Shown: positions 6,081-12,111 of the stretch, piece by piece | Layout: each line of letters starts with the position of its first letter | How positions within the stretch are numbered: the first letter of the stretch is position 1 | Assembly (NCBI GenBank): GCA_025454715.1 | Contig: JALONY010000131.1 | Location: forward strand, 1-12,111 | DNA from: Anaerolineae bacterium | Lineage (GTDB): Bacteria; Chloroflexota; Anaerolineae; Aggregatilineales; Phototrophicaceae | DNA length: 12,111 nt | Direction of reading: 5' to 3' | Position numbers and translations under genes: made by a program | The notes under the pieces: generated by a model | What the model saw: only the letters and a program-made list of their open reading frames with translations | Databases searched by the model: none | Told to the model about the DNA's origin: nothing

Positions 6081-6142
6081 CGTTGGCGGGGGGTGGCGCG
6101 TCTGAGGAGAAACGAGGCAGTAACGAGCGACGGAAAGGTCTG

Positions 6143-6977
6143 ATGATGGATTTGCACGGGATACACCACGTCACGGCGGTGACGCGCAACGCGAAGCGCA
6201 ACCTCCAGTTTTACACCACGGTTTTGGGGCTTCGGCTGGTCAAGAAAACGGTCAACCAAGACGACGTGACGGCCTATCACTTGTTTTACGCCGACAAGCT
6301 GGGGACGCCCGGGACGGACATGACGTTCTTCGATTGGCCGCAGACGCCGCCGGACGTGCGCGGGACGGACAGCATCGTCAACACGTTGTTTCGCGTGAGC
6401 GGGCGGGCTGCGTTGGACTATTGGGCGGGGCGGCTGGAATCGCATGGGGTCACGCATCAGGGAATCGAGAGCTTTGATGGGCGGTTGCGCTTGCGGTTTT
6501 ATGACCCTGAGGGGCAACGCTTGACCTTGGTCGATGACGGCGGCGCGCCGTTCGAGGGTGAGGTATGGGATGGTGCGGGCGTGCCGGTAGCCCGACCAGA
6601 CCATCGCGATTTATGAGATGGACGGGGGCGGTGCGGGCAAGGAATTGCACGTGTACGAGCAACCCAAACTCGGGCGGGCGCGCTTGGGGCACGGTGGGGT
6701 GCATCATGTGGCGTTTCGGTTGCGTGATGAGCAGGAACAAGCCTATTGGCTGGATCGGTTGAGCGGGTTTGGGGTGCCGAACTCGGGTGAGGTTGACCGG
6801 TTTTACTTCAAGTCGTTGTATTTTCGCATTTCGGGCGGCATTTTGTTCGAGCTGGCGACCGACGGCCCCGGGTTCCATGCCGATGAGCCGCTGGAGTCTC
6901 TGGGCGAGCGGCTGGCGTTGCCGCCGTTCCTCGAGCCGCGCCGTGCGCAAATCGAGGCGGGGTTGAAGCCGCTGTAA
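6143..6977 (+). pseudogene. VOC-family ring-cleaving dioxygenase (MhqO-like), broken by an internal deletion
   Basis: The two halves of one glyoxalase-fold protein lie in different frames. The N-terminal half starts at 6143 (or 6146; AAAGG lies 5-8 bases upstream) with MDLHGIHHVTAVTRN and runs through GQRLTLVDDGGAP to GVPVA, then goes out of frame and stops at 6616. The C-terminal half resumes in another frame near 6591 (PDQTIAIYEMDGGG) and runs through GGVHHVAFRL, FYFKSLYFRISGGILFELATDGPGF to a stop at 6977. Conserved His of the HHV motifs and the Glu of LFELATD, the usual metal ligands in this family, are present. The halves sum to about 275 residues against a usual 310-320. The stretch that normally follows VPVA (YQI-type, opening the third beta-alpha-beta module) is missing. 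This is therefore an out-of-frame deletion of roughly 35-45 codons, not a simple frameshift. It follows the regulator gene by 62 bases with no terminator. An assembly error cannot be excluded. Confidence 0.75.
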
Positions 6978-7013
6978 GCCCCTATAAGCGAGCGGATTGG
7001 CCTGCGATTGTGC

Positions 7014-7042
7014 TTGCCGTGAACGATGCTGCGGGCTATGCT
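7014..7042 (+). promoter_or_regulatory. Sigma-70 promoter of the PNPOx-like gene
   Basis: TTGCCG (7014-7019), a 17-base spacer and TATGCT (7037-7042) place the transcript start near 7049, some 27 bases before the ATG at 7076. It lies in the 98-base gap after the broken dioxygenase and gives the flavoprotein gene its own transcript. Confidence 0.6.
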
Positions 7043-7075
7043 GACATCACCGTATAAACCCGTGGGAGGGGAGCG

Positions 7076-7633
7076 ATGGCCAAGTATTACGACGACATCA
7101 CCGAGGAATTGCAGGCGTTCATCGCGCATCAGCAGATGTTTTTCGTGGCGAGCGCGCCGCTGAGCGCTGAGGGGCACGTCAACCTATCGCCCAAGGGGTT
7201 GGATTCGTTTCGGGTGTTGTCGCCCAAGCGGGTGGCGTATCTGGATTTGACCGGTAGCGGCAACGAGACCTCGGCGCACTTGCACGAGAATGGGCGCATC
7301 ACGTTCATGTTTTGTGCGTTCGACGGCGCGCCGAAGATTTTGCGGTTGTTCGGGACGGGGCGGGTGGTGTTGCCGGACTCGGCGGAATGGCCGGAGCTGG
7401 TGCGGCATTTCACGGTTCACAGCGGGGTGCGGCAAATCATCGTGGCCGACATCGCGACGGTGCAGACCGCGTGTGGGTATGCGGTGCCGTTGTATGGGTA
7501 TGAGGGGCAACGCGACACGCTGACGCGGTATTGGGACGTGAAGGGGGAAGACGGCCTCGAGGCGTACCAGCGCGAGAAAAACACGCGCAGCATCGACGGG
7601 TTGCCGACGCCGCTGGGCTTGGCCTGCGAGTAG
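7076..7633 (+). CDS. Pyridoxamine 5'-phosphate oxidase family (FMN-binding split-barrel) protein
   Basis: This is a small cytoplasmic flavoprotein of 185 residues that appears complete. The start at 7076 has GGGAGGGG 5 bases upstream. The conserved pattern of this subfamily is easy to see: MFFVASAPLSAEGHVNLSPKG near residues 21-41, YLDLTGSGNETSAHLHENGR in the barrel where FMN usually binds, ITFMFCAFDGAPKILRLFGTGRVV, and the end KNTRSIDGLPTPLGL. Members of this group are broadly conserved, but their substrate is generally not established; they are not the vitamin B6 enzyme PdxH itself. It has its own promoter and terminator and shows no functional tie to the sugar operon or the downstream defence unit. 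Confidence 0.92.
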   Translation: MAKYYDDITEELQAFIAHQQMFFVASAPLSAEGHVNLSPKGLDSFRVLSPKRVAYLDLTGSGNETSAHLHENGRITFMFCAFDGAPKILRLFGTGRVVLPDSAEWPELVRHFTVHSGVRQIIVADIATVQTACGYAVPLYGYEGQRDTLTRYWDVKGEDGLEAYQREKNTRSIDGLPTPLGLACE

Positions 7634-7646
7634 GGCGGTTGAGACG

Positions 7647-7687
7647 AAACCCCCGCTATCCGAGAAGGGTGGCGGGGGTTTTTGTTT
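7647..7687 (+). terminator. Rho-independent terminator after the PNPOx-like gene
   Basis: AAACCCCCGC (7647-7656) pairs with GCGGGGGTTT (7672-7681), and the inner ATCC/GGGT can extend the stem. The stem is followed by a T-rich tail (TTTTTGTTT). It starts 14 bases past the stop codon and isolates the downstream nuclease-helicase operon from upstream transcription. Confidence 0.9.
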
Positions 7688-7726
7688 GGGTGGGGAAGAG
7701 AATATCCATGATGAAATTGACTTTTG

Positions 7727-7748
7727 AATCCCCACAAACATGGGGATT
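7727..7748. repeat. Perfect 8-bp inverted repeat at the -35 region of the nuclease-helicase operon
   Basis: AATCCCCA (7727-7734) and TGGGGATT (7741-7748) surround a 6-base centre, 5 bases before the extended -10. It may be an operator that blocks the -35 region. Alternatively, because TTGTTT follows it, it may be a second weak terminator for the upstream gene. The sequence alone does not decide. Confidence 0.6.
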
Positions 7749-7753
7749 TTGTT

Positions 7754-7762
7754 TGCTATACT
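7754..7762 (+). promoter_or_regulatory. Extended -10 promoter (TGCTATACT) of the nuclease-helicase operon
   Basis: TATACT (7757-7762) is preceded by TG plus one base, the extended -10 form that can work without a good -35. The -35 position is occupied by CA-rich sequence inside or next to the inverted repeat. The predicted transcript starts near 7769, giving a leader of about 34 bases. Confidence 0.55.
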
Positions 7763-7764
7763 GA

Positions 7765-7790
7765 GTTTATCCTGTCTCTATCGGATAAAC
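7765..7790 (+). repeat. Perfect 8-bp inverted repeat in the leader, abutting the ribosome site
   Basis: GTTTATCC (7765-7772) and GGATAAAC (7783-7790) surround a 10-base centre. The second arm ends directly before the ribosome-binding site GAGGTGG (7791-7797) of the nuclease gene. It covers the predicted transcription start and could act as a DNA operator or, if transcribed in full, as an RNA hairpin affecting initiation. Confidence 0.55.
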
Positions 7791-7802
7791 GAGGTGGTTA
7801 TA

Positions 7803-8897
7803 ATGCAAGAACAGGAAAAAATTAAGGGAATTTTGACATTGTTTGCGGTTGGGCTGATGCAGCAATTTGCGGCCATCTACCGAGAGCAACCATCTGCCGT
7901 CACATATTTGAACCCAACGTTGCGCACAGGGTGGGAGAAGCTCAGCTTCGTGTGCCATAGCCAAGGCGTGGTTCCACCCTTGACGCTTGCGAGCTTGGTG
8001 GCGTGGTTGCACCAGCCGTTGGCCGAGTGGGGGGTTGGTGTGCCTGATGAATGGGCGGATAAAAGGCTCCTCGTAGACGCTGTAACGACCGAATTTTGTG
8101 AAGAACTCGGCGCGAGTCTGTCAGAGGTAGGGGATTTGCGGCTTGAAATGCAGGATGCGGTGTTTCGCGAGCTGCACGAGGTCTGCCGTGGTCTCGGTGA
8201 TGCCGACCTGTATAGCGCGATGCGTGAATTTTTGATTTCGCATCCCATTTTGGATGATGTGGTGGCTGATATTCAGCTCAATCGTCTCTGGCCACCCGTG
8301 ATACGTCACCTGCTACGCCGTTGTTTCGAGCCGATACCTGTGGCGTGTATCAGAAGGCATCACGGGCGAGATTGGGTTGCTGTTTGCCCTCATTGTGGCT
8401 GGACGTTGGCTTGGGTGGGGGATACCCCGTTTTGTCATCGGGGTGGGGTGTGTAAAGCGGTGTGTGGCGAGGGGTTTGAGGGATTGGTATGGCGCGAGTA
8501 TGACCCCGCACTGTCCCGCACGACCGAGGGCATTCAGCGGTATGTCGTTGCGCCAGAGGTGACTCTGCTCAGCCTACGTGATGAACTGGTAAAAACCCAC
8601 GGGGTGCGTTGTGAGCTGTTCCCCAGCTTCGACGCCTACGATATGCGTATCGTGTTGCCTAGTGGCAAAAAGTGGGCCGTGGACATGAAAGACCACAACG
8701 ATTCGGCGCGCTTAGGCCGCACCATGAAACCCTTTTTGACCGTGCCTGCGTGGGATAAAGCCTTCGTGGTCTTTCCGCAGCACCGCAAAGACGGCGACTA
8801 TCTCAATCGTTTCAAGAACCACTGGAAACGTGCCAAAAACGAAGATGTGCGTTTTGCTCAGGAGCTGTTGCGCGATGTGCGTAAGGTGGTGGGCTGA
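7803..8897 (+). CDS. pPIWI-RE-module restriction-endonuclease-like protein (zinc ribbon + PD-(D/E)xK)
   Basis: This is the predicted nuclease of the pPIWI-RE three-gene conflict module, 364 residues. The start at 7803 has GAGGTGG 5 bases upstream. The N-terminal helical part (1-190) contains family-like motifs: LTLASLVAWLHQPLAEW, TTEFCEEL and REFLISHPIL. A zinc ribbon follows, with C195, C198, C211 and C217 (CPHC then FC-x5-C). The nuclease core is C-terminal: GVRCELFPSFDAYDMRIVLP with D280, then KKWAVDMKDHND with D294-x-K296, the D...DxK metal-binding pattern. It ends with PAWDKAFVVFPQHRKDGDYLNRFKNHW, which I recognise from 'REase associating with pPIWI RE' proteins. The stop overlaps the helicase start by one base (TGATG), implying coupled translation. 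Catalytic activity is predicted only; the family match is from memory of its conserved motifs. Confidence 0.88.
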   Translation: MQEQEKIKGILTLFAVGLMQQFAAIYREQPSAVTYLNPTLRTGWEKLSFVCHSQGVVPPLTLASLVAWLHQPLAEWGVGVPDEWADKRLLVDAVTTEFCEELGASLSEVGDLRLEMQDAVFRELHEVCRGLGDADLYSAMREFLISHPILDDVVADIQLNRLWPPVIRHLLRRCFEPIPVACIRRHHGRDWVAVCPHCGWTLAWVGDTPFCHRGGVCKAVCGEGFEGLVWREYDPALSRTTEGIQRYVVAPEVTLLSLRDELVKTHGVRCELFPSFDAYDMRIVLPSGKKWAVDMKDHNDSARLGRTMKPFLTVPAWDKAFVVFPQHRKDGDYLNRFKNHWKRAKNEDVRFAQELLRDVRKVVG

Positions 8898-11800
8898 TGG
8901 TTGACGTGTGGGCAGAGCTGATACGGCTGACCAAGGCACAGGGTGGTGCGCCAACCGATTGGGTTCAAGCCGACTACGCCAAACTGTTCGAGTTTGAGGC
9001 TGTCTTGTACCTCGCGGAACGCTTGATTGAGTCGCCCGCACAACGCCCGGTCGAAGATTGTTGGACGTTGGTTTCGGGTTACTGCATTGCGGGTTTGAAC
9101 GACTCGGCTGAAGCGCGCCGGATGTGTTTGTCATTGCGTCGTCGCTTGCGGCATTTGGACAGCCATGCGGCATGGAAAACATGTTGTACGTGGTACCGCC
9201 AGCTCCCTGATAGCCTGCGCCTATACGACGTGACTTTGCAGGGCGACATGGGGTGGATGTCGGCAATTAAACCCTATTTCCCTGATTTTCATGCGCGTAA
9301 AGCGGCGTATCAAGCGCTTTGTCAAGCATTTTATGACCCCGATGACAAGCCTGCTTTACCGTGGGCATCGGCTGGGACGTATCAGTTTAAGATACGGCGA
9401 AGCCATGGAGAGGTCTTAGAGGCTGTGACGCTGACGCCTGCGCTGGCCAATCATGCGGTGAAACAGACCGCCAAACGCGCCTTGCCGACACGCACCGAAC
9501 GGGTGCCCATAACGGTTACGTTGGCAGATCTCTTGCGAACGGCTGAGGGGCTAGACCAGCGCGAGGCTGAGTTGGGTTTGACATCGCGGCGGTGGGCGGA
9601 GCGCATCAAGAATTTGGAGCTGTCTGGCGCGCATCCTGAGGCCGGCTATCACCTGACGGATGTGTTGACTCTGGACGGCTTGTTCCATCTGGTCGGGATG
9701 TTGGGCGCGGGCAAGTCGTCGTTGATTTGGGTGCTAACGGTGCATTTGGCACAACATGGGCATCACGTCTCTGTGGTGATGACGACGGTTGTCGAAACAT
9801 TGCGCTTTGCACAGTGGTTGCGCCAAATGGGGGTACGAGCCGCTCCGGTCTTGGGGCGCAAGCGCGCCGACCACGCTCGCAAGTATGGTATGGCCGAGTC
9901 CGAGGCGTTGTCTGAGGAGCGCTTATTCGTCCCGAGAACCGTTCACCCGCCCGCCGTCGATTGGTTGGTTGCGCCTTGTGCGCTGAGCGGTGCGTTGCAT
10001 GACCCCATCCCGCCCGGTGAAGAACCGTGCGATTCGCTCAAACAAATCGTCGATGGGGAAGAAAAGACCTTTCGTTGTCCGCTCAAACCCATCTGCCCGG
10101 TGCACCGCGCTGCTCGTGAGGCTGTGGATGCACAGGTGTGGGTGGTGAACCCCCAAAGCTTGCTTTATTCTGCTGCGCCCGATGGGGTGGGTGGGTCGGC
10201 GACCCGCTTATTGGAGGCGGTCTACCGCCTGAGCGATGTGGTGATTGTCGATGAGGCCGACAGTGTTCAAGTGCGTTGGGACACCACTTTTTCGCCATCC
10301 GATCCGATGGTGGGCAGTGACAATGCCTTTCTCGATTGGTTGCGTGAGCGGCTGACTCTGCACAGCAGGGGACGTAAGCGTTCGCGGGCAGGAGAAGCGA
10401 CGTTTAACCGGCTGACAAACCTCGAAGACCAGACCAATATCCTCGCGAACCATGCCTACCGCTTGCTCCAGAAACACAAAGGGGTGAAATCTTGGGTCGC
10501 TGGGCGTCAGCACACGCCATCGAGCTTGAGTTATCGGCTGGCAGAATGGCTGGTGAAGGCCTTTGTTGAGACGCGGGACAAAGTCTCTCAGAAGCGGCAC
10601 ACCGATGCCCTCAAGACCGAAATTCAACGGCTGATGGAAGACGACAAACGTCATTCTGACCATCCCTTGGCAGGATGGGTCAGCCGCTTGCTGGCGAACC
10701 CATCTGGTGATAGGGGGCTGACGAGAGAACTTCGTCAGTGGCTGATGACCCGTTTTAACCTGCGCGCAAACCATACGATGCTTGGGAAAGCGGCGCATCG
10801 TTTGGACATGGTATTGACGTTGGCGGCGTTAATCCGTCGATTTAACCGCATCACCAGTCATGAAGCATGGATCGAGCAAGAATTGGGCAGGTTCGATGGG
10901 GGTGATTTTTTGCCCAGCGAGACGGTGCGCGCCCTGATGCCGACCCCACCCTTGGATAATCCGTTGGGGTTGCGCTTGATCGTGCAGGGTACTACCGATG
11001 GTGGTGCGTTTTATCTGAGCCAAAGCCGAGGGATTGGGCGTTGGCTCTTGGTCAACCTTTCACGTTTGTATGAGGATCAATATGGCTGGGTGGGGCCGCA
11101 CGTTTTGCTGACCTCTGCGACCAGTTGGCTCCCGGGCTCGACACAGTTCAACCTGAAGCGCCCACCCGATGCCATCCTACGGCCAGCAAGGCCAGCTATG
11201 CCCGACATCACCCTCACCTATCACCCTGTCATGCACCGAGATAAGGCGATACGCATCTCTGGCGGGGGGAGTGAGGGGCAAAAATACAACAATTTGCGCG
11301 CAATGGTCAAAGGGCTGGCCGAAAGCGCGCCCGGGGTACATTCGCTCATCGAGCAAGAGCTGAACCATTGGGTCACACGTGACCCGAAAGCGCCGCGCCG
11401 CGTGTTGCTGGTGGTCAATAGTTATGACCAGAGTAGGGTGGTGTTGGAGACCATGGAGGCAATTCCTGCCTTTAAGGGGCGGGTACTCCGGCTGGTGGCC
11501 GATGACGAGACCATCACCGACGACGCCCCGTATCTGCATACCCGCAAGGTTGAATCGTTACTTGAGTATAACGCTGAGGTCTTAATTGCCCCGCTGATGG
11601 CCATTCAGCGCGGCTTCAACATCCTCGATGAGCATCACGGGGCGTTGTTGGGGTCTGTGTTTTTCCTCGTTCGTCCTTACCCGCCTCCCGATGACCTCAG
11701 CCAGCATGTGCTGGCGGTCAATGATTGGCTGATGCAGAGGCTCGAGCCCGATGGGCGTACCCTGCACAAAGCCCAAACCCTCGGCACGCTCCGCCATGTC

Positions 11801-12111
11801 CGGCAATCTGCCATGGGGATGTGGCGAAAACGCCTGCAAGCGCGCACGTTCAACGGGATGGACGACGATATTTATGCGGCATTTCTGCGTGACCATTTCG
11901 TGCCGATTTGGCAGACGATCGGGCGCTTAATCCGGGGTGGCAAGGACGCCAGAGCCTTTTTCGTCGATGGTGCCTTTGCGCCCAGCGATGGCGTGCGACA
12001 TCTCTTGCGCGACTGGCACAGGATGTTGAAGGAGCTTGATTCCGATACCGATTTGACCGTAACCGCGTTGACGGCTGCGCTGTATGCCGACGCTATCGAA
12101 GCCTTTGACCG
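8897..12111 (+). CDS. pPIWI-RE-module DinG/XPD-like helicase, 3' end outside window
   Basis: This is a large SF2 helicase, the second gene of the module. The frame is open from 8897 to the window edge (1071 full codons); I translated it throughout from 9041 and found no stop. The ATG overlaps the nuclease stop (TGATG), with AAGGTGG upstream. Residues 1-260 match the module-specific N-terminal domain (YRQLPDSLRLYDVTL, then TLADLLRTAEGLDQREAELGL). Motifs follow in order: Walker A GMLGAGKSS (267-275, K273); four cysteines C361, C378, C394 and C400 placed as in the XPD/DinG iron-sulfur domain; DEAD box D452-D455; TSAT with S740-T742; VVNSYDQSR (motif IV-like); IAPLMAIQRGFNI with R905 (motif V); and GRLIRGGKDARAFFVDGAFAP near 1009 (motif VI region). 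The C-terminus is cut by the window, but little is probably missing. It may unwind DNA or R-loops for the nuclease and a PIWI-RE partner; that role is inferred. Confidence 0.88.
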   Translation, partial: MVDVWAELIRLTKAQGGAPTDWVQADYAKLFEFEAVLYLAERLIESPAQRPVEDCWTLVSGYCIAGLNDSAEARRMCLSLRRRLRHLDSHAAWKTCCTWYRQLPDSLRLYDVTLQGDMGWMSAIKPYFPDFHARKAAYQALCQAFYDPDDKPALPWASAGTYQFKIRRSHGEVLEAVTLTPALANHAVKQTAKRALPTRTERVPITVTLADLLRTAEGLDQREAELGLTSRRWAERIKNLELSGAHPEAGYHLTDVLTLDGLFHLVGMLGAGKSSLIWVLTVHLAQHGHHVSVVMTTVVETLRFAQWLRQMGVRAAPVLGRKRADHARKYGMAESEALSEERLFVPRTVHPPAVDWLVAPCALSGALHDPIPPGEEPCDSLKQIVDGEEKTFRCPLKPICPVHRAAREAVDAQVWVVNPQSLLYSAAPDGVGGSATRLLEAVYRLSDVVIVDEADSVQVRWDTTFSPSDPMVGSDNAFLDWLRERLTLHSRGRKRSRAGEATFNRLTNLEDQTNILANHAYRLLQKHKGVKSWVAGRQHTPSSLSYRLAEWLVKAFVETRDKVSQKRHTDALKTEIQRLMEDDKRHSDHPLAGWVSRLLANPSGDRGLTRELRQWLMTRFNLRANHTMLGKAAHRLDMVLTLAALIRRFNRITSHEAWIEQELGRFDGGDFLPSETVRALMPTPPLDNPLGLRLIVQGTTDGGAFYLSQSRGIGRWLLVNLSRLYEDQYGWVGPHVLLTSATSWLPGSTQFNLKRPPDAILRPARPAMPDITLTYHPVMHRDKAIRISGGGSEGQKYNNLRAMVKGLAESAPGVHSLIEQELNHWVTRDPKAPRRVLLVVNSYDQSRVVLETMEAIPAFKGRVLRLVADDETITDDAPYLHTRKVESLLEYNAEVLIAPLMAIQRGFNILDEHHGALLGSVFFLVRPYPPPDDLSQHVLAVNDWLMQRLEPDGRTLHKAQTLGTLRHVRQSAMGMWRKRLQARTFNGMDDDIYAAFLRDHFVPIWQTIGRLIRGGKDARAFFVDGAFAPSDGVRHLLRDWHRMLKELDSDTDLTVTALTAALYADAIEAFD

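Follow-up and report, generated by a model that had tools for sequence, protein, structure and literature searches.

Two overlapping genes at a contig end very probably form the 5' part of a pPIWI-RE island in a Chloroflexota-type genome

Two genes at the 3' end of a contig from a Chloroflexota-type genome almost certainly correspond to the first two genes, i.e., the 5' part, of a three-gene pPIWI-RE island. This assignment draws on sequence-based evidence: gene order, a one-base overlap, domain content, conserved catalytic, zinc and cysteine residues, and the PIWI-RE gene that adjoins the equivalent pair in relatives. The locus represents a known family of three-gene systems, of which it is a divergent and truncated member. 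The window (the whole stretch of DNA that was analysed) is an entire contig of 12,111 bases that ends inside the helicase gene, and its source genome comprises 2.67 Mb in 444 contigs and is 71.35% complete. An earlier note on this DNA had recognized a pPIWI-RE nuclease-helicase pair from the letters alone, and we find both genes where it placed them: ORF1 at 7803-8897 and ORF2 from 8897 to the contig end. In the accessible text of Burroughs, Iyer and Aravind (2013, PMC3702460), pPIWI-RE islands follow a strict order of REase, DinG and pPIWI-RE genes, with a Y, zinc-ribbon and REase protein encoded first and a Z and DinG protein second, in overlapping genes on the same strand. The locus has this arrangement as far as it can be followed. 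It differs from the published islands in that the third gene, which encodes X, MID and PIWI-RE domains, is not seen, because the contig stops at position 12111.

The first gene (7803..8897, + strand) encodes a 364-amino-acid protein in which a Y domain, a zinc ribbon and a PD-(D/E)xK nuclease fold can be distinguished. Its ATG at 7803 matches the start of a 364-amino-acid database copy (P0028), and a second in-frame ATG occurs at 7740. Pfam models for pPIWI_RE_Y (PF18156, E-value 4.7e-14; 7923..8252, residues 62-171 numbered from 7740) and pPIWI_RE_REase (PF18154, 1e-23; 8568..8891, residues 277-384 numbered from 7740) both match above their curated cut-offs, and the PADLOC model PprRE matches at 3e-28. 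Four cysteines of the zinc ribbon (C195, C198, C211 and C217, numbered from 7803; 8385..8453) are invariant in all 14 aligned sequences. The putative nuclease active site (8556..8690) consists of E252, D280 and D294-x-K296 in the same numbering. Among the 14 sequences E252, D280 and K296 are invariant and D294 is conserved in at least 90%. In the predicted structure (pLDDT 90.3) the glutamate sits on a helix and the D-x-K at a strand, so that alignment and model both suggest the catalytic roles given to these residues. Foldseek returned no match to this protein at E <= 0.001, and comparison of its profile with sequences of solved structures yielded only an RNA polymerase subunit, at E 0.052.

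The second gene begins at the ATG at 8897, whose A doubles as the final base of the ORF1 TGA. This TGATG arrangement is the one-base overlap that the earlier note had described, and it places the two genes on one strand with the REase gene first. The gene extends for 1071 codons (8897..12109, + strand) before it is cut by the contig end. A relative, P0001, has 1080 amino acids and is 98% identical across the whole length, and therefore about nine codons and the stop are absent from ORF2. The Z domain (PF18155, pPIWI_RE_Z; 8975..9472, residues 27-192) matches above the curated Pfam cut-off at 1.1e-18. It is followed by a DinG-type SF2 helicase, which PADLOC assigns to PprDinG at 1.8e-144, far ahead of typeIV_DinG at 9.1e-5. 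The best fold matches are DinG, CasDinG and XPD, and a profile of the helicase found no sequence of a solved structure at E 0.01.

Several conserved features are evident in an alignment of 23 sequences of this helicase. G267, G272, K273 and S274 are invariant in all 23, within a region (G267-S274; 9695..9718) that we take to be the Walker A motif. Also invariant in every sequence are C361, C378, C394 and C400 (9977..10096), which constitute a probable Fe-S region, and the DEAD box of motif II (residues 452-455; 10250..10261). A QxxGRxxR element (11912..11935), in which Q1006, G1009, R1010 and R1013 are each conserved in at least 90% of the sequences, is presumably a counterpart of motif VI. 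In the predicted structure, helices spanning residues 478-663 are inserted between the two helicase halves. The protein thus combines the Z domain, DinG-type helicase, cysteine-rich region and helical insertion expected of the second gene of a pPIWI-RE island.

The profile searches that the earlier note had proposed support its identification, in that the Y, REase and Z models are the best matches and no unrelated family in Pfam, PADLOC or NCBIfam matches above its cut-off. NCBIfam has no model above cut-off for either gene; the YoaA repair helicase model (NF053712), considered for ORF2, scores 12.1 bits against a cut-off of 680. Among 5.8 billion proteins we detected 27 homologues of the helicase and 16 of the REase protein (the window's own protein counted), and therefore the observation is not due to chance.

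The 5' side of the pair is closed, as the earlier note had also proposed, by a terminator-like hairpin and T-run on the + strand (7645..7690) that follows a gene for a PNPOx-fold protein (PF01243, 3.5e-11). The hairpin has a folding energy of -30.3 kcal/mol (z -6.4), which none of 200 shuffled sequences equalled. A second hairpin with a T-rich stretch, at 7722-7756 on the same strand, precedes the REase ATG by about 50 bases. Its folding energy is -12.4 kcal/mol (z -2.7), matched by 6 of 200 shuffled sequences, and it may act as another terminator or as an attenuator. No Rfam family reaches its gathering score in the window, and no sigma-70 promoter-like site was found in 6900-9100.

Further upstream, names were given to the glycoside-hydrolase, ABC transporter and glyoxalase genes by inspection of their translations and not by family search. 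On the minus strand, the window opens at the left with a glycoside-hydrolase-like fragment, followed by an operon for a sugar ABC transporter. These are followed on the plus strand by a LacI-type regulator, a glyoxalase-like gene, the PNPOx gene and then ORF1 and ORF2. The glyoxalase-like gene is split between two frames (6083-6616 and 6618-6977, + strand), which reflects either an assembly indel or decay. At the left end of the contig, the glycoside-hydrolase-like gene also occupies two frames (1-267 and 180-1133, - strand). Matches to the PNPOx protein are present in 39 of 98 genomes of the family, including the source genome and both other genomes of its genus. Seven PNPOx neighbourhoods (L184-L189 and L195) of 3.7 to 19.9 kb were read, and in none of them does PNPOx adjoin any of the other nine proteins of the window; the insertion point of the island thus cannot be defined. 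One of these neighbourhoods (L184) carries weaker homologues of the LacI regulator and a permease about 6-10 kb from PNPOx.

The island has a patchy distribution, occurring in 9 of the 98 family genomes, the source genome among them, and in neither of the two other genomes of the same genus. In a protein collection, the window helicase groups with nine proteins (P0001-P0009) in a clade of its own with tree support 1.0, and it shares 38-98% identity with these proteins and about 25-37% with the helicases of the other genomes detected. A scan of genome contigs with the window helicase alone detected no relative, and a scan with an alignment (A1) detected 214. The best 80 of these were retained; their best segments are 25-32% identical, and the window's clade is not represented among them. 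A query with P0006 against the order (154 genomes) and the order of genome G653 (20 genomes) listed matches of at most 39% identity, the window itself (42%) aside, and the longest matches listed, of about 1000 residues, are 30-32% identical. Relatives of the helicase occur on plasmids, and a search of plasmids at the DNA level returned none. Neither 50,697 phage records nor viral contigs yielded a relative of the helicase.

Comparison of relatives establishes what follows the helicase gene in such islands, and there the expectation of the earlier note, a PIWI-RE gene next on the same strand, is borne out. We profiled 102 loci: 18, plus 79 of the best 80 of 214 relatives (L066 duplicated the record of L033 and was left out), plus five more. 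The HMMs used derive from A1, from a second alignment (A2) and from 14 PIWI proteins encoded at PF13032-positive loci. The 102 loci were selected for similarity in the helicase or the Z domain and do not represent independent samples. REase, helicase and PIWI-RE genes lie in this order on one strand in 95 of the 102, and in 94 of these 95 the PIWI-RE ORF begins at most 150 bases after the helicase; overlaps are overstated because ORFs were extended to the first possible start. The locus with the long gap, L041 (G664:C8:92000-111900), is an island from the same class with several stops across the helicase and PIWI-RE genes, and is apparently a decaying copy. PIWI-RE is present in 99 of the 102 loci, and the other three (L042, L043 and L087), in which no other gene of the island is missing, are cut by contig ends, either inside the helicase or 63 bases past it. 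Every locus that is readable more than 63 bases past the helicase (99/99) therefore contains PIWI-RE. In another locus (L040), the contig begins inside the helicase. X, MID and PIWI domains were found by Pfam in all three of the PIWI proteins tested. Three actinobacterial islands (L115:8808-9926, L117:8734-9921 and L127:7780-9984) encode a Y domain above cut-off upstream of helicase and PIWI-RE genes, with no REase match above the Pfam cut-off (L117 has a weak one, 1.2e-4), and are possible nuclease-lost variants.

In the source genome, the third gene was most likely lost to assembly. PF13032, PF18157 and PF13111 match nothing on the 444 contigs of this 71%-complete genome, which might suggest that it retains a nuclease-helicase pair as a PIWI-less remnant. 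Because these families also gave nothing in 14 control genomes, the negative result was calibrated on 18 relatives, with PF13032 only; that search was positive in 18 of the 19 genomes tested, the source genome being the sole exception. We consider a remnant highly improbable, given that the genome is incomplete, the contig stops inside the helicase, both ORFs are uninterrupted, and PIWI-RE is a constant feature of the 99 readable loci. Moreover, in two other genomes (G108 and G132) the helicase contig likewise stops inside the helicase, and PIWI-RE is found on another contig. For the window's own clade (P0001-P0009) no locus is readable beyond the helicase, and none of 77 PIWI matches (only candidates sharing most words were scored) could be tied to these proteins.

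As to function, there is perhaps an even chance that the three proteins carry out guided destruction of invading, actively transcribed DNA. On plasmid or phage DNA, the PIWI-RE protein, missing here, would bind either a short guide or a hybrid of RNA and DNA. It would recruit the Z-DinG helicase, which would unwind the target and translocate along it, and the Y, zinc-ribbon and REase protein would cut the exposed DNA. This logic would resemble that of DdmDE, which, according to the available text of PMC12904381 and structure titles, combines a guided Argonaute-like sensor with helicase and nuclease activities; here the three functions would reside on separate polypeptides. Certain observations argue against guided destruction, namely that PIWI-RE is seen neither in the source genome nor, among the candidates scored, on contigs of its clade, and that phage records and viral contigs lack helicase relatives. 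A narrow reading of the 2013 proposal (as given in the accessible part of PMC3702460) dispenses with the guide: PIWI-RE would sense R-loops of invading transcription, DinG would resolve them and the REase would cut. RNA-DNA hybrids are acted on by DinG-family helicases, hybrid recognition was proposed in that paper, and the helicase fold here is closest to DinG, CasDinG and XPD. However, the one characterized PIWI-RE protein cuts with added guides, and no feature of the window separates guided from hybrid-only action; guide-free restriction appears possible rather than probable. It seems unlikely that the proteins form a replication or repair module that handles RNA-DNA hybrids or stalled forks of the host chromosome, as the patchy presence of the island is unlike that of housekeeping genes and helicase relatives reside on plasmids. 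Nevertheless, the part of PMC10991935 available to us reports that P. stutzeri lacking PIWI-RE survives ciprofloxacin about 15-fold less well and forms filaments, and its authors cite a role of DinG in replication and repair. This phenotype is not one of defence and also counts against guided destruction.

The resemblance to DdmDE has limits. In the text seen of PMC12904381, DdmD fuses helicase and nuclease and is partnered with DdmE, whereas here these functions lie in separate ORFs, and the helicase matches the PprDinG profile; a DdmD-type fusion is thus not what the window encodes. The helicase also differs from that of DdmDE in being DinG/XPD-like with a four-cysteine region. Type IV-A CRISPR CasDinG, as described in the portion of PMC10450177 available, has a vestigial Fe-S domain, unlike the four invariant cysteines found here. 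The nuclease protein has a weak fold match to DdmD at about residues 920-1189, with a Z-score within 1 of those of other nucleases (Cdn1, 7.9), an rmsd above 5, and Upx as the best row. One conjecture, which we regard as doubtful, makes pPIWI-RE islands a counterpart of DdmDE with split genes. The Y, zinc-ribbon and REase protein and the C-terminal part of DdmD would then have a common origin that extends past the nuclease core, and target DNA would be passed by PIWI-RE to the DinG motor and the nuclease, thereby eliminating plasmids.

Within the Argonaute-like proteins of prokaryotes, pPIWI-RE is a named branch, and interest in the locus lies in the unsolved function of this family. The literature searched yielded one paper that uses the name pPIWI-RE and one experimental study centred on a PIWI-RE protein. 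Because the locus is truncated, it leaves the role of the family untestable by itself. It does add a divergent pPIWI-RE lineage, and the comparison of relatives yields a firm synteny count. The weak match between the REase protein and DdmD leads to a concrete hypothesis, guided plasmid destruction, for an intact island. A split-gene relationship to DdmDE, if true, would join two Argonaute-linked families of plasmid defence.
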